Of a stretch of 40,869 nt of DNA, positions 3,146 through 38,626 are shown piece by piece. The DNA is taken from the IMG/VR virus record IMGVR_UViG_3300035661_000143, positions 1 through 40,869 of that record; one strand, given 5' to 3'. The notes under the pieces are model-generated. The model ran no database searches, had not been told where the DNA came from, and was given only the letters and a program-made list of their open reading frames with translations. How positions within the stretch are numbered: position 1 is the first letter of the stretch; the number at the start of each line of letters is the position of its first letter. The stretch comes from a virus. A program made the position numbers and the translations under genes.

Positions 3146-3565
3146 TTAGATTTGCCGCTTAGTGATAGCATCGCTAATTTTTGTAGCGACTTTCTCAAGG
3201 GATCGACCACCGAAGTAGGCAACAACTACAGTCATGTAGATTCCCCACATATTCGGATCAAGCGGATCAGTTGATCCATGAGTCCACGAACCAAGAATCT
3301 TATCCCAAACAACAATTTTCCAAGTGAAAAGAACAAATGGAAGAGCAAATACTGGACGAACCCATCGAGTTATCCAATTGCCTTGTTCAGCCACGAGAAC
3401 AGAAGCGTTTACTTCTGCTTCTCGCTTTTGAATATCGAGATCTTTTGCGGCAAGATCAGCTGCAATTTTCTCTGTTGTGTTACCAGCAGCAAGCTTTGCT
3501 TGATAAGCTTTTACAAGCGAACCAAGTAGAGGTCCCGATAGAAAACTAAGAATCAGGGACCACAT
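3146..3565 (-). CDS. Holin-like membrane protein (GTA_holin_3TM-like)
   Basis: 139 residues. A hydrophobic N-terminal segment (residues 2-20) is followed by a charged helix (about 25-58), then WITRWVRPVFALPFVLFTW and a last hydrophobic segment MWGIYMTVVVAYFGG. The W-x-RPVFA region resembles three-helix phage holins used to release gene transfer agents and phages. It is the third gene of a compact cassette after the endolysin and another membrane protein, with 3-base gaps, which supports a lysis role. Family assignment is from pattern only. Confidence 0.65.
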   Translation of the reverse strand: MWSLILSFLSGPLLGSLVKAYQAKLAAGNTTEKIAADLAAKDLDIQKREAEVNASVLVAEQGNWITRWVRPVFALPFVLFTWKIVVWDKILGSWTHGSTDPLDPNMWGIYMTVVVAYFGGRSLEKVATKISDAITKRQI

Positions 3566-3568
3566 AGA

Positions 3569-4018
3569 TTACTTTACCTCAGTCTGTGAAGGTGCAAGAG
3601 CAGCAGATGCAGACTCTGGTGCAGCAACTTCTGGAGTTACAAGAGATGCTTTCACATCTTCATTTTCTCTCTTCTCAGAAAGATGGCGGAACCAATTAAG
3701 CAACCAAGTAACGCCGATAACGATAAGAGGATATGCCCATTCTGGAATACGAGAAGTCAGAGGAGTGATGTTTACACCAGTCAGTGCAGGAAGAACCGAG
3801 TCATACATCATGACTACGATGCCTGCGAGAGTGATGACTGCACCAGCAATCTTCTGCTTGATGCCTGCAAACTTAACCTTCAATACAGCCAAGAAAGAAT
3901 CATCTTCCTTGATAAGAGAAGCAAGCTGCGGTGTCTGTGCAAGAATCTTGCGAATCCAGAACCAGTAAATTACAAAGATGGTGAATGCAATTGCTACAGT
4001 ATTAATTACGGCGAACAT
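3569..4018 (-). CDS. Membrane protein, second holin or lysis regulator candidate
   Basis: 149 residues with an N-terminal membrane helix (about 5-25), two further hydrophobic segments (about 58-77 and 95-112), then a charged, Ala/Pro/Ser/Glu-rich tail predicted to be cytoplasmic. It lies 3 bases after the endolysin gene and 3 bases before the holin-like gene. No family recognised; context suggests holin, antiholin or accessory lysis protein. Confidence 0.6.
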   Translation of the reverse strand: MFAVINTVAIAFTIFVIYWFWIRKILAQTPQLASLIKEDDSFLAVLKVKFAGIKQKIAGAVITLAGIVVMMYDSVLPALTGVNITPLTSRIPEWAYPLIVIGVTWLLNWFRHLSEKRENEDVKASLVTPEVAAPESASAALAPSQTEVK

Positions 4019-5488: not shown

Positions 5489-5968
5489 TTAGAAGGTGAT
5501 CTGTTCTTTTTCTAGATGTCTCTTATAGGCCGTGTAGAGGTTTCGTTCCATACGAAAAGCTTCCTTTTCCCATGGTAGTTCTCTGTAAGTAAAGTCTTTC
5601 TCCTTGATAGTTCGCATTTTCCATCGTACTTGACGAGCCATTGCTGGATCTTCAAGAGACCAATCCCAAAGTTGATTTTTCACATATTGCTTTATATGAA
5701 CGCATTCGTGCATAATTCCACGCAGAATGCCTTGCTTACCTAATTTTTTTGAAAGATTAAGATCAAATTCGCGTGGCGGCTTACAGTCGTCGAAATATGC
5801 TATCAGTTCTGCTTTTGCTCTTACAAGAGCGAAGTCTACATGTTTGATGTGAATTTCAAGCTTCGAGAGCATCTGATAACCAATTAGCCGCTTAAGACAC
5901 CATCGTACTGCATATTCTATTTCTTCACTAGAAATAGAACCGTTACTTCCACGATGGTGAATTGTCAT
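5489..5968 (-). CDS. Putative zinc metallopeptidase (HExxH)
   Basis: 159 residues. The motif HECVH followed by IKQY at about residues 88-96 is a zincin active site, and a downstream acidic segment WEKEAFRMERN (about 133-143) may give the third zinc ligand, as in SprT-like or other phage peptidases. GGAGG precedes the ATG. A sigma70 promoter and an overlapping late octamer lie upstream, so it may be made both early and late. Target unknown. Confidence 0.7.
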   Translation of the reverse strand: MTIHHRGSNGSISSEEIEYAVRWCLKRLIGYQMLSKLEIHIKHVDFALVRAKAELIAYFDDCKPPREFDLNLSKKLGKQGILRGIMHECVHIKQYVKNQLWDWSLEDPAMARQVRWKMRTIKEKDFTYRELPWEKEAFRMERNLYTAYKRHLEKEQITF

Positions 5969-5996
5969 TTGGTCTGACCTCCGCTTAAAGACCTAT

Positions 5997-6030
5997 TATT
6001 TATAGTATCATAGCTGTTGCAAAAAGTCAA
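5997..6030 (-). promoter_or_regulatory. Overlapping early (sigma70) and late promoter
   Basis: TTGACT (6025-6030), 17-base spacer, TACTAT (6002-6007). The -10 overlaps a perfect TATAAATA late octamer (5997-6004). It reads toward the metallopeptidase gene. Confidence 0.7.
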
Positions 6031-6063
6031 CATCTTTTTAATCCGTATACGGCTTTCGTGGGA

Positions 6064-6092
6064 TTGACAAGTGACACTTTTTGTAGTAGAAT
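6064..6092 (+). promoter_or_regulatory. Sigma70 promoter on the plus strand, antisense to the repeat protein gene
   Basis: TTGACA (6064-6069), 17-base spacer, TAGAAT (6087-6092). It points right, into the 3' end of the minus-strand gene at 6126-8363, where no plus-strand gene is apparent. It is divergent from the promoter at 5997-6030. Confidence 0.55.
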
Positions 6093-6125
6093 AAGAACTG
6101 TCCTACGGCACCAGTGGACTACAGA

Positions 6126-8363
6126 TTAACGATCCTTATACTTAGCACGAATGATTGGAGGTAGTTTGCTCTTGATAGCTTGGATAGCATCAGCAAATGA
6201 ATAGGTCTTCTTGAAGTAGACATTAGACATATCGTACAACGAGTTGACGAGACGAGAGAATGTTACTGAGAAGGCTACTGCAATCTGTTTACCAACAGAT
6301 CGGATACCTGAGACCTTCTGACCAGTACGGAAGAAATTCAAAGAGTTATAAGCCTTCTGTCGGAAGAAGATCAAACGAGGCTGCATCGCAAGCACAAGAC
6401 GCTTGTTCATAGTCAGAATTTCTGAATACATCGGATAAATTGTAACAGTCAGGATTTTTCTTACTTGACGAGTTATTACATTCGTAATAGGCAATGCAAT
6501 TGTAAAGATTTTTTCTGATCCCTTAATCAATTTCACTGTCTGTGCATTTACAAATAGTACGGATTTTTGAATCTGTTTAAGAACTGACGTGAACTGTCCT
6601 GATACAAATCTCAGAATCTTGTTAGTTGCAACTCTAGACGTGAAAGATGAAGCAAACCAAACAGGTAGAATCTTGCCGATTGCTCGAAGACCAGTTAATG
6701 TCTCGCCAATGGAAACAGTCAATTTCTTTCCTGCAGCTTTATAAGATCTAATCGACCATGTTAGTGCAGTTGAAATCGTCTTGCTAGTTGCATTTCTATC
6801 ACGAAACAATTGTGCGAATGCAATTGTAGTTTTTACAATTGCCACCTTCATAGTCTGAAGACGTGCAGCATTCCCAATGTAAACTGTAAATCTAAGATAG
6901 TGACCAGTCTGTTCAGTGAACTTCTGTACAAGACTAAGAGATGCTTGCATGATCTTCGGGAACGAACGAGTAAGAGTTACAATTTGACCAATAGAAGTTC
7001 TGAATGCTTTCGAAGAAGACTTCAGTGCCGTAACAGTTTCTGACAGTGCAAATGTCACATACTTACGAAGCGATCGTGATATAGTTATTGCCCCTGAGAA
7101 GAACACAGAAAACACTTTTCTCGATGATCTTACTAAAGCAAGAATAGATACATTCTGGAATAGAATATTCTTTCCAATTCCACGTAGCGTCTTGAATGTA
7201 TTTCCTGAGGCTACAGTAAAAGTCTTTGGTACATATCGACGGGATACTTCTAAAATCTTTTCTGATATAGGAACAAGAATAATTTTAGATAGGCTCTTAA
7301 GCAAAGCTGGAGCTTGTGCAAGAGTCATTGTCAGCTTCTTAACTATACCTGAACGAGATGACATTGATTGTAAAAGCGCCATATAAATGGTAGTCGATAT
7401 TCTACGTAGCGCATTAAGCTGTTCAGAGATATAAAAATTAAGATACTTAGTAAGAGCACGAGAGTAACGAACAGACACTGGTGTGCTTGCTACAATGATT
7501 TTTATAGCCTGCTTGATGTCAATTAAAGATCCAAGTAAACCAAGCGGTGCTGATAGAACCTTTGGAATAACTCTGATTATTTTCATTGCAAAGGTATTGA
7601 ATATAGTAAGATATAATGGGAATTTCTTTACTACATTCTGAATGACGATCAAAGGAATAAGAATGATTTTGGAGACACTCTTTGGATTCTTCAACGCTTG
7701 AGCTGTTGCAAAGGTAAAGGCACGAATCTTAACCGGTAACTTAGCAAACAACAAAGCATTTCCGATGCTTGTAATAAATCCCTTTCCAGCAGCTTTAAAA
7801 GATTTAACTGTTTCTGGAAGTGCTATTCCAAAAGTTTTAGACATCAATTTCATAATCTTTACAGTCTCAGCAAACTGTATTGATAGGACTTTCAAATTTT
7901 GTCGTGAAATATTAATTATAGATGCGAACAGAATTATGACTGTTTTTGTTGCAAATTTTCCAGCTGTCTCTGAAAATCTATTTCCTAAAGCAACAGCGAA
8001 GATCTTTGCGCCAGCCTTTAAAAAGTTTTGGGTATTAGTTATAGCAAAATTAATGATTTTTGCAATATTGTTCTTAAGGGATGCAATAGAAGCTAAACTA
8101 ACTACGAAGAATTTACCTCTAGCAGTACGCAATACACTAAAAGCTTCTGCAGAAACTGCAGTAACGGATTTGACTAATAGACGACCAGGATTTGGTTTTA
8201 CAGCTTCTGCAACAGCAACTGATAAATTTTTTGCCAAACTCTTGATATACAAGAGTGGACTACTTATACTCACAAGTGATGTAGAAAACCACGTCTTACG
8301 TTGTGGAATCTGATTGTGGTTTGATGTTAATGGTCGGGTCCCGGTGGCCCAAAAGCCTAGCAT
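6126..8363 (-). CDS. 18-residue repeat protein, large copy
   Basis: 745 residues, very basic and hydrophobic with few acidic residues. From about residue 80 to 680 the protein reads as more than 30 near-contiguous repeats of 18 residues, each starting with K followed by alternating hydrophobics, a turn, and an amphipathic segment; example KTFTVASGNTFKTLRGIG. A few repeats have 20 or more residues. The C-terminus loses the pattern (KSKLPPIIRAKYKDR). A paralogue lies at 13212-14567. A repeating beta plus helix or beta-solenoid unit is plausible, but I know no family. A late promoter and position after tail-type genes suggest a virion or adhesion role. Confidence 0.75.
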   Translation of the reverse strand: MLGFWATGTRPLTSNHNQIPQRKTWFSTSLVSISSPLLYIKSLAKNLSVAVAEAVKPNPGRLLVKSVTAVSAEAFSVLRTARGKFFVVSLASIASLKNNIAKIINFAITNTQNFLKAGAKIFAVALGNRFSETAGKFATKTVIILFASIINISRQNLKVLSIQFAETVKIMKLMSKTFGIALPETVKSFKAAGKGFITSIGNALLFAKLPVKIRAFTFATAQALKNPKSVSKIILIPLIVIQNVVKKFPLYLTIFNTFAMKIIRVIPKVLSAPLGLLGSLIDIKQAIKIIVASTPVSVRYSRALTKYLNFYISEQLNALRRISTTIYMALLQSMSSRSGIVKKLTMTLAQAPALLKSLSKIILVPISEKILEVSRRYVPKTFTVASGNTFKTLRGIGKNILFQNVSILALVRSSRKVFSVFFSGAITISRSLRKYVTFALSETVTALKSSSKAFRTSIGQIVTLTRSFPKIMQASLSLVQKFTEQTGHYLRFTVYIGNAARLQTMKVAIVKTTIAFAQLFRDRNATSKTISTALTWSIRSYKAAGKKLTVSIGETLTGLRAIGKILPVWFASSFTSRVATNKILRFVSGQFTSVLKQIQKSVLFVNAQTVKLIKGSEKIFTIALPITNVITRQVRKILTVTIYPMYSEILTMNKRLVLAMQPRLIFFRQKAYNSLNFFRTGQKVSGIRSVGKQIAVAFSVTFSRLVNSLYDMSNVYFKKTYSFADAIQAIKSKLPPIIRAKYKDR

Positions 8364-31151: not shown

Positions 31152-31223
31152 GTGCTGGATGGCGGAATCGAATCGCCGATAGAGCGTTACAAGGGCCCTG
31201 TTATACCACTTAACTAATCCAAC
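31152..31223 (-). tRNA. tRNA-Thr(TGT)
   Basis: Acceptor GTTGGAT/ATCCAGC, D-arm GTTA/TAAC, anticodon loop CTTGTAA with a C31-C39 mismatch, T-stem with an A53-C61 mismatch, A73, no CCA. Confidence 0.8.
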
Positions 31224-31230
31224 TTTATTT

Positions 31231-31304
31231 TGGCTGCCACTCTTGGTCACGATCCAAGACCTGCGCTTTCAGAGAGCGACGTACATCCATTATACGAAGC
31301 GGCA
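31231..31304 (-). tRNA. tRNA-Gln(CTG)
   Basis: Acceptor TGCCGCT/AGTGGCA with U1-A72, anticodon loop CTCTGAA, T-arm CTTGG-ATCGTGA-CCAAG (A54, T58), G73, CCA encoded. Confidence 0.88.
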
Positions 31305-31360: not shown

Positions 31361-31695
31361 TCTTCATAAGATGGACTATAAGCCGGTTTCTGTACTACGA
31401 AATATAGTGACGATTTAGAGCATCCGTAGCGACATTCATTTGACTTGGTTCATAGTTACCCATGAACTCCTTGCTCCCTACCATTACCTAGCACACATTT
31501 AAGTGATGGGGATGGATACCCGTCGGCGAACTTGAGATTGCTGCGCGTAGAGTTTAGCCGTTTCAGCCGAATTTAATCGGATCGTTTCTGTTCCACTAGT
31601 CCTCGGATCACTCCAGGTGGTCGTTAGCCACTACGCTTCCATACTGCAGACCGGACTTTCCTGACCGTAGCCTAAATGTCCGTCCTTCTTATGAA
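31361..31695 (-). ncRNA. rnpB: RNase P RNA (bacterial type A-like)
   Basis: 335 bases. P1 pairs the ends: CTTCATAAGA-a-GGA at the 5' end with TCC-a-TCTTATGAAG at the 3' end. Conserved blocks in order: CAGGAAAGTCCGGTC (5' P4 region, CR-I), GACTAGTGGAACAGAAACG, GGCTAAACTCTACGCGCAGCAA, TAAATGAATGTCGC and ACAGAAACCGGCTTAT (3' P4 region, CR-V). These match E. coli rnpB segments in the same order. It is the ribozyme subunit that cuts the 5' leader from pre-tRNA; no P protein gene is seen here, so it would use the host protein. It lies in the middle of the tRNA island. Confidence 0.92.
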
Positions 31696-31704
31696 GAAGT
31701 TCTT

Positions 31705-31837
31705 ATCGGCGGTAGCTTTCTTCCATTGTCTACGATTGAGAGATCAAGCTCAACCCAACTGAAAGCCTATTGCTTCGCTATAAAGTCGAATGCGCACTTG
31801 ACAGTTAGTTCGAGAGAATGAGCAATCACTGTCGCCG
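31705..31837 (-). ncRNA. Unassigned structured RNA upstream of RNase P RNA
   Basis: Gene-free 133 bases closed by TCGGCG / CGCCGA, with inner pairs ACAGT/ACTGT, ATTGC/GCAAT (alternative) and TTGAG/CTCAA. No tRNA arms found. It could be a leader of the RNase P transcript or a separate RNA; I know no matching family. Confidence 0.35.
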
Positions 31838-31879
31838 AAATTGGTGCCAGGCAACGGCACAACCCGCCCACCCAGCTTA

Positions 31880-31956
31880 TTGGCTCCAGAGGCTGGTTTC
31901 GATCCAGCATCGGCGAGAGTTAACAGCTCTCCGTCCTTACCATTTGACTACTCTGA
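31880..31956 (-). tRNA. tRNA-Asn(GTT)
   Basis: Acceptor TTCAGAG/CTCTGGA, G73 with CCA, anticodon arm GAGAG-CTGTTAA-CTCTC, T-arm GCTGG-ATCGAAA-CCAGC (A54). Confidence 0.9.
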
Positions 31957-31962
31957 AATAAC

Positions 31963-32038
31963 TTGGTGCAACCTGCAGGAATCGAACCCGCTTCAACCGT
32001 TCTTCAAACGGCCGCTATAACCATATCAGCTAAAGTTG
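31963..32038 (-). tRNA. tRNA-Phe(GAA)
   Basis: Acceptor GCAACTT/AGGTTGC, D-arm GCTG/TAGC, anticodon arm GCCGT-TTGAAGA-ACGGT, T-arm GCGGG-TTCGATT-CCTGC, A73 and CCA. Canonical. Confidence 0.92.
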
Positions 32039-32047
32039 CATTTAATT

Positions 32048-32121
32048 TGGAGCGGCATGACGGTAACGATCCGTCTTACTTTGATTGGCAACCAAAGACA
32101 TTACCTTTATGCTAATGCCGC
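32048..32121 (-). tRNA. tRNA-Gly(GCC)
   Basis: Acceptor GCGGCAT/ATGCCGC, anticodon arm TTTGG-TTGCCAA-TCAAA, T-arm GACGG-ATCGTTA-CCGTC (A54, T58), CCA encoded. Confidence 0.9.
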
Positions 32122-32128
32122 ATTTAAC

Positions 32129-32443
32129 TTAATCTCCAGAAGACGTAGAAGCCTTTTGCAGAATGCCGATGATATTTGGTTCATCGACGAGAATTACATC
32201 TTCACCTTCGATCTTCAACGGAACACCTTGTCCACGAAGAAGTAGAACTTTATCACCTACGGATACCTGTGAAGCTCTCAAAGAGCCATCAGCATTTGGC
32301 ATTCCGGGTCCAACTGCAAGAACCATCGCTTCTTGATTGATCGACTCAGGAGACATTTCAGAGAGGTGAACACCACCTGCAGTGAGTAGTTTCGACTCGA
32401 ATCGCTTCAAAATTACGCGATTGAACAGCGGTTGAAATTGCAT
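32129..32443 (-). CDS. groES: GroES-like co-chaperonin
   Basis: 104 residues from MQFQPLFNRVILKRFESK, close to the GroES N-terminus. The mobile-loop region is LLTAGGVHLSEMSPESINQ, followed by VLAVGPGMPNADG, VGDKVLLLRG and GEDVILVDEPNIIGIL, all GroES landmarks. It would cap host GroEL, as T4 gp31 does for capsid folding. No GroEL gene is visible. AAGGA precedes the chosen ATG. Confidence 0.9.
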   Translation of the reverse strand: MQFQPLFNRVILKRFESKLLTAGGVHLSEMSPESINQEAMVLAVGPGMPNADGSLRASQVSVGDKVLLLRGQGVPLKIEGEDVILVDEPNIIGILQKASTSSGD

Positions 32444-32503
32444 AATAAAATCCTTCACAAGTTTGTCTGGTCTGACTGACTACTGTTACAGAAGTCCGAG
32501 AAA

Positions 32504-34437: not shown

Positions 34438-34617
34438 TCAAGCAACTTGCAGATATGGCGACCACGGCAGGATTCGAACCTGCATTTTCATCCAGTTACC
34501 GTGCTCTCCGTTCGAAGCGGAGGGGGTTACGTGGCCATTATTCTTTTGGTACAAGCGGAATGAGACTTGGAAACCATTTTTCAAGAACTTCTCAATCATA
34601 GTGAAGCGTGAGATCAT
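34438..34617 (-). CDS. Small protein running through tRNA-Arg(TCG)
   Basis: 59 residues, MISRFTMIEKFLKNGFQVSF onward. The ATG overlaps the rusA-type stop (ATGA). From about residue 27 the codons are also the tRNA-Arg(TCG) gene (GHVTPSASNGEHGNW), so the C-terminal half is probably accidental read-through into the tRNA. Confidence 0.45.
   Translation of the reverse strand: MISRFTMIEKFLKNGFQVSFRLYQKNNGHVTPSASNGEHGNWMKMQVRILPWSPYLQVA
34456..34536 (-). tRNA. tRNA-Arg(TCG), displaced D-loop type
   Basis: Acceptor GGCCACG/CGTGGTC, CCA encoded. TA-ACCCC, then CTCCG-CTTCGAA-CGGAG, AGCAC, GGT, AACTGGATGAAAAT, and T-arm GCAGG-TTCGAAT-CCTGC. Same layout as the other three Arg tRNAs. Confidence 0.75.
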
Positions 34618-34982
34618 CGTGCACCATCACGCTTAGTTGGATGGCCGATATACATCTTGCTCATCGTGACCTTCTGAATATGTCGGTCATCCTTAAGGAT
34701 CGAAGGACCCTTCAGTGACTTTGCATCTAGAGCCATGAAAACAGCTTCGAGCAAGTGATCCAGGTCAGGAGACGCTGGGTTTGTGAAGCTGAGAACCAAA
34801 TCGATCGGATGATCGATAGGCAAGTCAACAGCATGAGAAATTTGTCGAGTAGCTGACTTGGTCAATTCCTCACGAAATTGCTGTAGTACAGCTCGATGCT
34901 GACGCTTGTGCGGACAGCCGTGAATGTACATCGTAAGAACTGGAGGATGAATCATGTCGTCATAACGAATAACGGATTTCAC
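34614..34982 (-). CDS. rusA: RusA-like Holliday junction resolvase
   Basis: 122 residues (E. coli RusA has 120). The active-site pattern PDLDHLLEAVFMALDAKSL (Asp pair) followed by ILKDDRHIQKVTMSK (Asp-Asp and Lys) matches RusA. It cuts branched DNA during phage recombination and packaging. GTG start with GGAG seven bases upstream, overlapping the stop of a short frame before it. Confidence 0.85.
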   Translation of the reverse strand: MKSVIRYDDMIHPPVLTMYIHGCPHKRQHRAVLQQFREELTKSATRQISHAVDLPIDHPIDLVLSFTNPASPDLDHLLEAVFMALDAKSLKGPSILKDDRHIQKVTMSKMYIGHPTKRDGAR

Positions 34983-36750: not shown

Positions 36751-37640
36751 GGAGTAGAATTGGTACGGTGAGATTACCCGTCTTACAGTTGCACCTCTGA
36801 GATTATCCTAATCCTTGCGAGGACGGCCGTGTCAGCACTTTAGGTTCCTGTTCATCCACGAGAGTCTCAAAAGAGAGATCATCTCGTCTGCAACCATGGT
36901 CGCCTGTTTTAAGTGAAGGCAGTATCACTATTCCGAAGAACTACTCATCGACTTCATCCCCACTTGCCTTGCGAGCAATTCGAGTCCGCTAAGACTCTAT
37001 GATGACTCTATCAATAAACAACGTCGGCCTTGCGAGCTCTGTTGCGCTTCATTACCTTGCGGTTGAAGCATTTGACCACTTACATTCTTCAGTGAACTAG
37101 ACTTTGCTTTTTAATCGTGAAAATATTGGAATTGAACCAATGCTTTCTCCTTGAAATGGAGATTGACTACCACAGTCAATTTTCTGTTGCTACCTACTGC
37201 CCCGTGCTAGTTCAGTCGCTTCGCCCTCTTTTGGAGAACAAAATACAACACGTTGCTTACGTTTTGCCTTGCGAGCTACTCCGTCAATCTTCAAGATTTT
37301 GTGTCTCTTTCAAGAAACGAGACCCAGCATCTTTGCATTTGTGAACTACCTTTCGTTGCGACACGTCAGACTAATTTCACTATACGTTATCTATCCTCAT
37401 AAAGCTAGTTTGCATGTCAGTGAGGCTTGCGACCTCTTATCCTACAGTGTTACCCTCGGACTATCTTTCGACTAACCTAGCCGTTCTGACTATCCCCTTG
37501 GAAGAGGACACCTCGCGGTGCAGATCGTACTTGCTTGAATGAGCCATTCAACATGGTGCGGGCCTGTAGGAGGTGACCGCTTTACATACATCACTGCATG
37601 CTATTCTTAGGGGACGTCAAGCCGCCCTATTTTTAAGTAA
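36751..37640 (-). ncRNA. Large structured RNA candidate (GOLLD/ROOL-like)
   Basis: About 890 bases with no convincing gene. On the minus strand at least six hairpins end in C-GCAA-G tetraloops (near 36816, 36970, 37032, 37057, 37270 and 37430) and one in C-GAAA-G (near 37467); examples ACC-GCAA-GGT and GAGGTCGCAAGCCTC. A tRNA-Glu is embedded. Size, tetraloop density and tRNA neighbourhood recall the GOLLD and ROOL RNAs known from phages, but I cannot align it. Ends are estimates. Confidence 0.55.
37117..37185 (-). tRNA. tRNA-Glu(TTC)
   Basis: Anticodon arm TCTCC-ATTTCAA-GGAGA, D-stem GACT/AGTC, T-arm ATTGG-TTCAATT-CCAAT, acceptor GAAAAT/ATTTTC with the first pair A-A; no CCA. Sits inside the large structured RNA candidate. 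Confidence 0.8.
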
Positions 37641-37879: not shown

Positions 37880-38596
37880 TTAATGTGCGAAGGTAAGCTC
37901 ATTGAGCTTGATGCGATCAAATTCAGCATAGATTTTCTTTAGCCAAGTACGAACGTATCCGCGAAGAACAAGTGAATAAGAAGCAGCAGCACCTTCATTT
38001 GTTTCATTCTCGATAAAGTGCTTGAAGGTCACGCCGATCTTTTCGACATTCTCCATAGCGAGTTCATCAAGCTTTGGAATGTCAATTGTTCCCGATCGAG
38101 GATCAGAAAAAATGGATTCCGTTGTAACCTTATCCCACTCAAAGAAGTTCGAGTTGTTGATATGATTCTTGACAAGAAAATAATGAGCAGTTGGAATTTT
38201 TTCTGCAGTGTCTTTGATTTCCGCGAGCGAAGCAAGCGTTGGACCTAAGACATGCATGACTGCAAGATTGAGTGTTTTTGACTTGACCATATCAAGCAAA
38301 CCAACATTCAGCATAGTTTCGAGTGTAGGACTCAAGAGACCTGCGCGAATATCGATAACAGTGATTGGTGTCTTTTCGAGAGTGTCGAAGACTTTCATCT
38401 GACCATCAGATGTAGTCAAGTCAACCATCTCAGTATCGTTTGAATTGAACCGCTTCAGAACTCCATTTGGAGTTTCAGTATCAAAGGCTCGAAATTTTGA
38501 ACCTTGAGCAGTCAGATATTCAAGAAGAGTTCGCGAGATAGTAGTTTTACCTACGCCGCCTTTGTCCGCGCCAACCATAATAAGTAGAGGTGTCAT
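37880..38596 (-). CDS. ParA/MinD-type ATPase
   Basis: 238 residues from MTPLLIMVGADKGGVGKTTI, which contains the deviant Walker A motif KGGVGKTT (residues 12-19). Walker B-like VIDIRAG is near residue 78; the C-terminus is helical. GGAG before the second ATG decides the start. ParA-type ATPases position DNA or protein complexes; no parB or centromere is visible here, so the role is open. Late promoter upstream. Confidence 0.85.
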   Translation of the reverse strand: MTPLLIMVGADKGGVGKTTISRTLLEYLTAQGSKFRAFDTETPNGVLKRFNSNDTEMVDLTTSDGQMKVFDTLEKTPITVIDIRAGLLSPTLETMLNVGLLDMVKSKTLNLAVMHVLGPTLASLAEIKDTAEKIPTAHYFLVKNHINNSNFFEWDKVTTESIFSDPRSGTIDIPKLDELAMENVEKIGVTFKHFIENETNEGAAASYSLVLRGYVRTWLKKIYAEFDRIKLNELTFAH

Positions 38597-38626
38597 TTGT
38601 CGCTCCATAAAGTAGTATTCATGAAC

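Follow-up and report, generated by a model that had tools for sequence, protein, structure and literature searches.

A bacterial class A RNase P RNA within the tRNA array of a T4-like phage

The minus strand of a 40.9-kb IMG/VR virus fragment (hereafter the window, meaning the whole stretch of DNA analyzed) contains, embedded among phage tRNA genes, the full gene for an RNase P RNA of bacterial class A. The RNA belongs to a T4-like tailed phage and not to a host, and comparison with relatives shows that the RNase P fold is under selection in phages. Most likely, this is a working gene whose product joins host RnpA to process phage tRNAs, although its activity and expression are inferred.

RNase P RNA is a ribozyme found in almost all cells, and the maturation of phage tRNAs is the classic example of a process that depends on it. 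Specifically, phage T4 relies on both the RNA and the protein of host RNase P, whereas the phage described here brings the RNA itself. A copy carried by phages would mean that this ancient core ribozyme exists in a viral version. One may then ask why phages need additional RNase P, whether they share RnpA with the host, and to what minimum size a bacterial-type RNase P RNA can shrink. Cultured phages of Microbacterium foliorum, discussed below, make these questions testable now.

The literature we searched contains no earlier report of a phage-encoded RNase P RNA. Because that search omits most subscription journals and preprints, novelty is provisional. Al-Shayeb 2020 (PMC7162821) describes huge phages with tRNAs, a CCA-adding enzyme, and tRNA synthetases, and does not mention RNase P. 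The megaphages of Lui 2021 (PMC8172020) yielded tRNAs and a tmRNA only. A mycobacterial survey records extra rnpB copies and draws no phage link. An earlier note on the window, made from the sequence alone, was not aware of RNase P RNA being a standard phage feature. That view half holds: the RNA is unannotated and unreported as far as we could find, yet many phage records rich in tRNAs have it, as do four cultured phages.

The window RNA and its surroundings

Rfam cmscan matches minus-strand positions 31691-31363 to the full length (1-367) of model RF00010, bacterial RNase P class A, at 146.8 bits (E 2e-45; gathering score 100). Because P1 pairing runs beyond this match, we extend the gene to the approximate limits given in Table 1, a length of ~337 nt. 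Folding energy provides weaker support: the z score is -2.2, 3 of 100 shuffles fold equally well, and the free-energy fold misses the pseudoknots, as expected. Scans for promoters and terminators near the gene revealed nothing clear and nothing above chance.

Table 1. Coordinates of the RNase P RNA gene, its elements, and associated features (window positions unless a record is named).
Feature	Position	Strand	Basis or remark
RNase P RNA gene, class A without P13/P14	31361..31697	-	RF00010, helix assignment, L240 orthologue
P1 5' strand	31682..31697	-	pairs with 31361-31376
P4 5' strand AAGUCCGGU, bulged U31655	31650..31658	-	pairs with 31380-31387
P4 3' strand ACCGGCUU, block ACAGAAACCGGCUUA	31380..31387	-	helix assignment and covariation
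P6 5' strand AUGGA	31638..31642	-	pseudoknot with UCCAU 31512-31516, P17 loop
L15 GGU, CCA-pairing motif	31480..31482	-	UGGUA before P15 3' strand
Extended P19, CUACG/CGUAG	31395..31429	-	helix assignment
Upstream tRNAs Gly(GCC), Phe(GAA), Asn(GTT), in transcription order	31881..32121	-	ARAGORN
Downstream tRNAs Gln(CTG), Thr(TGT)	31152..31304	-	ARAGORN
GOLLD RNA in the same tRNA array	36765..37256	-	RF02032, 164.8 bits, E 1.3e-44
Miniature RNase P RNA	L222 3996-4212; also L236, L237, L238		four cultured Microbacterium phages

Helices P1-P12, P15, and P17-P19 can be assigned in the window RNA, as can the P4 and P6 pseudoknots and the GGU of L15; P11 is the least certain. P1 comprises 11 bp (31697-31687 with 31371-31361), an A-A mismatch, and 4 bp (31685-31682 with 31376-31373). 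P4, the long-range helix formed by CR I and CR V, has 8 pairs and the bulged U, and the P6 pseudoknot between J5/7 and L17, a class A trait, is present. P3 is a 3-bp hairpin with a UACG loop, and a GUGA loop caps P9. L15 reads UGGUA and therefore keeps the GGU for pairing with the CCA of tRNA; 17 of the 21 window tRNA genes checked encode CCA. The only class A helices that cannot be assigned are P13, P14, and a clear P16, and the covariance-model alignment likewise shows P13 and P14 to be absent. Many accepted bacterial RNase P RNAs lack these two helices (PMC8172020), so they are not required for class A membership. CR IV deviates from the consensus, reading AGUCAAAUG instead of AGAUGAAUG; together with the very short P3, this variant could possibly lower protein or metal binding.

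Thus described, the RNA resembles bacterial rnpB in its catalytic-domain helices, bulged U in P4, P6/P2 topology, L15 GGU, and P7-P12. It differs from rnpB in being phage-encoded within a tRNA array, in lacking P13/P14, and in its P3, extended P19, and CR IV. Class A RNAs from Bdellovibrionota and Margulisbacteria (L163, L207, L208, L151) also do without P13 and P14, but these sit in bacterial contigs.

The gene is surrounded by ~25 tRNA genes, all of which share its minus strand and lie at 25 to 41 kb of the window (20 from ARAGORN and 5 more from Rfam at its cut-off, with 3 further weak candidates). The RNase P RNA lies between tRNA-Asn, ~184 nt upstream, and tRNA-Gln, ~57 nt downstream, a looser spacing than in most relatives. 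The upstream gap (31698-31880) yielded no match and is not significantly folded (z -1.2); it may hold a decayed or divergent gene, because the phage record L240, introduced below, has a tRNA there (3270-3341). Elsewhere, the window has phage-type matches to a DNA polymerase (phrog_262), a holin, and tail-fiber-like and endolysin-like proteins, and it encodes several SegE-like GIY-YIG homing endonucleases, thymidylate synthase (Thy1), and GroES. No relatives were found for a 530-aa ORF. The GroES (Cpn10) gene, at 32129-32458 on the minus strand, lies within the tRNA array.

The earlier note had identified a complete bacterial-type RNase P RNA of phage origin in a tRNA island. The ribozyme identity, the origin, and the position all hold, and the Rfam check it proposed gave the full-length match reported above. 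Both P4 blocks it named are confirmed, with the bulged U. It did not state the strand, which is the minus strand. Its P1 of 10 plus 3 bp is too short, and its count of about 35 tRNA genes is too high.

Phage relatives and conservation of the fold

An ORF at 34614-34982, adjoining tRNA-Ile(TAT), led to L240, a 181-kb record that carries a T4-type major head protein (8e-161) and a related homing endonuclease. Its tRNAs run Gly-Phe-Asn, as in the window, followed by one more tRNA and then an RNase P RNA (3348-3679; 139.1 bits to RF00010). A second relative, G048, possesses a polymerase 48% identical to that of the window, head and scaffold proteins, SbcCD, UvsX, and 26 tRNAs; its RNase P RNA directly precedes tRNA-Val, an array position different from that in the window. 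The T4-type major head protein is present in the relatives G048 and G075. Because relatives with T4-type virion genes carry the same RNA and the window itself has phage-type matches, we assign the RNA to a T4-like tailed phage. A T5-like identity, our first guess from the polymerase, was dropped: phrog_262 also matches the genomes of E. coli and of archaea, and the relatives have head and scaffold proteins of T4 type. No RNase P RNA was found in 20 DNA-polymerase relatives of the window, mostly short records and fragments.

The window and L240 RNAs are 70% identical. Of 54 helix pairs scored, 34 are unchanged, 5 are changed on one side, and 15 on both, and none is broken. When the changed 3' letters of the 20 altered pairs were redrawn 10,000 times, a mean of 9.3 pairs and a maximum of 17 were kept. 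The strands for this count come from our own alignment and exclude P10, P11, P17, P19, and the re-formed P1. In L240, a different 9-bp helix occupies the place of the window P1, and P6 reads AUACA/UGUAU versus AUGGA/UCCAU in the window.

Covariation extends across 11 phage RNAs aligned from P4 to P4. Their score is 0.492 versus 0.178 +/- 0.018 for shuffled alignments and 0.057-0.122 for slid structures; relatedness is not preserved by the shuffles but is preserved by the slid control. Pairing holds in 87.3% of cells, and P4, P7, and P18 covary, while P11 pairs poorly. In P4, 98.9% of cells are paired and 3 pairs show two-sided changes: A-U to G-C and C-G to G-C in L142, L143, and L144, with an outer pair that alternates among U-A, A-U, and G-C. 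Among 18 phage RNAs, P6 partners are RNA-specific, with none of 5,000 permutations reaching the observed sum; the P6 of the window RNA taken singly is within chance (0.35). These comparisons show that the RNase P fold is under selection in phages.

Where the phages obtained the RNA is less clear. The nearest non-phage RNAs by DNA match are from Bdellovibrionota and Margulisbacteria (75-80% over ~130 nt). The RNA tree is weak overall and does not firmly place the window RNA. L142 groups with a Patescibacteria-type RNA (99% support) and, separately, L120 groups with L143 (86), and for that reason more than one capture is likely.

Occurrence in other records and in cultured phages

An exact P4 motif search returned at least 119 IMG/VR stretches. 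Of the 50 records examined with Rfam, 21 exceed the cut-off, and another ten or so reach 50-85 bits. Approximately 30 IMG/VR records contain an RNase P RNA, most of them within a same-strand tRNA array; the matches include near-duplicates (L003/L087, L027/L094, L018/L097). The spacer to the neighboring tRNA is often nearly nil, with the next tRNA starting 15-25 nt past the 3' block of P4, at the end of P1. Particular neighbors recur within groups: Phe-RNA-Ser, Cys-RNA-Gly, and Thr-RNA-Gly. Strong matches to phrog_2, which we take to be the large terminase, occur in 6 of 29 records, and 4 of those 6 also match the Pfam terminase model. In a few records (L011, L015, L068, L073), the RNA probably lies in host flank.

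Some matches were rejected. Those in Acinetobacter phages were discarded as host flank. Inspection of the annotation showed that a match on a Tsukamurella plasmid resembles an ordinary bacterial gene and has no tRNA array. Microcystis phage MaAM05 (L223, MW495066.1) was set aside because fabI, engB, and glyS near the match look bacterial; the record may be mislabeled.

Cultured phages carry the RNA as well. Specifically, the M. foliorum phages A3Wally, Zooman, and Big4 and a fourth phage (192-195 kb) all possess an unannotated 216-nt RNase P RNA lying between a pair of neighboring tRNA genes. These RNAs score 51-72 bits against RF00010, under the gathering score, with E values of 4e-13 to 4e-20. 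Unlike the class A form, they have a reduced specificity domain. In A3Wally, P6 is lengthened to 8 bp.

We note further observations on divergent forms. Zooman and Big4 differ in the inner pairs of P4, where both strands are changed from AAG/CUU to AGU/GCU. The reduced RNAs of L092, L018, L080, and L222 share a short element, CACUAAGC..A.ACU.A..., at the site of the specificity domain. Conceivably, this element is a replacement domain; a search for the miniature-specificity-domain motif returned mainly chance matches in protein-coding sequence. In L034, L049, and L231, a divergent form lies between tRNAs and matches RF00010 weakly (50-60 bits). An unusual stretch replaces its specificity domain, and two of the three records have a terminase match.

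Proposed role and rival readings

The notion we favor is that the RNase P RNA is transcribed together with the phage tRNAs, folds, and recruits host RnpA. The resulting hybrid enzyme would remove the 5' leaders from a burst of phage pre-tRNAs, most of them CCA-encoding. Where a downstream tRNA abuts the ribozyme, cleavage at the 5' end of that tRNA would also release the ribozyme 3' end. The phage would thereby gain RNase P capacity, or an RNase P specificity fitted to its own tRNAs, that is independent of host rnpB after shutdown of host DNA and transcription. The setting resembles the T4 tRNA cluster: a T4-like phage, a polycistronic tRNA array, and precursors that need RNase P. The earlier note had likewise proposed maturation of phage tRNAs, which remains the best reading, although it is an inference without transcript or cleavage data.

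Unlike the bacterial RNase P holoenzyme, the phage version comes with no phage-encoded RnpA that we could find. RnpA (PF00825) was detected in none of 31 related phage records, a scan that did not include the window fragment and in which 10 of 14 controls were positive. Because most of the records are metagenomic fragments, absence is unproven for each individual virus.

A bolder reading, which we consider as apt to fail as to stand, is that many tailed-phage lineages, from T4-like phages to records of >300 kb, carry RNase P RNA in tRNA operons, including, in cultured phages, versions of ~210-240 nt whose specificity domain is reduced or replaced. Together with host RnpA, these RNAs would constitute a self-freeing viral RNase P that shifts processing toward phage tRNAs.

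Among rival explanations, the one that survives best is a decoy, in which the phage RNA titrates host RnpA and host tRNA maturation drops, with catalysis on phage tRNAs secondary or absent. In its favor, no RnpA occurs in the phage records with the RNA, which must draw on the host pool if it binds protein, and in some phage RNAs most of the specificity domain is gone or has been replaced. However, a decoy would need only the RnpA-binding surface, and the RNA retains P4, including the bulged U, along with P6 and the GGU of L15, and P4 and P6 covary. Nor does a decoy explain why the RNA so constantly lies inside tRNA arrays. Retention of the catalytic core makes this reading unlikely in our judgment.

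Less probable still is a passenger, that is, a copy of host rnpB that came along with tRNA genes when arrays recombined and that persists although the phage gains nothing from it. Arrays do shuffle, as the differing position of the G048 RNA illustrates, and the phage versions probably have more than one origin, as with the Patescibacteria-type RNA of L142. Against this idea, 15 two-sided changes with no broken pair at the identity observed are the reverse of neutral decay, and the RNA recurs inside the tRNA arrays of many phage lineages. Finally, host contamination or a chimeric contig is ruled out for the feature as such and is very improbable for this contig: while the first pattern scan also caught host rnpB flanking viral sequence (probably L011, L015, and L073; H8), the window gene sits between same-strand phage tRNAs near homing endonucleases, GOLLD, and a phage polymerase, the independent L240 record preserves the gene order, and complete cultured phages possess the feature.

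The proposed viral RNase P RNA also has a parallel in GOLLD and ROOL, which are large structured RNAs found beside phage tRNAs. Unlike RNase P RNA, their structure is unrelated, and to our knowledge neither has a catalytic role. The GOLLD RNA of the window contains a tRNA-Glu(TTC)-like sequence (37117-37185) without an encoded CCA. The array of L080 combines tRNAs, GOLLD, a tmRNA (93 bits), and an RNase P RNA. In the relative L239, GOLLD occupies 5915-6398, and a ParA-like gene shares 59% identity with the window ORF at 37880-38608.
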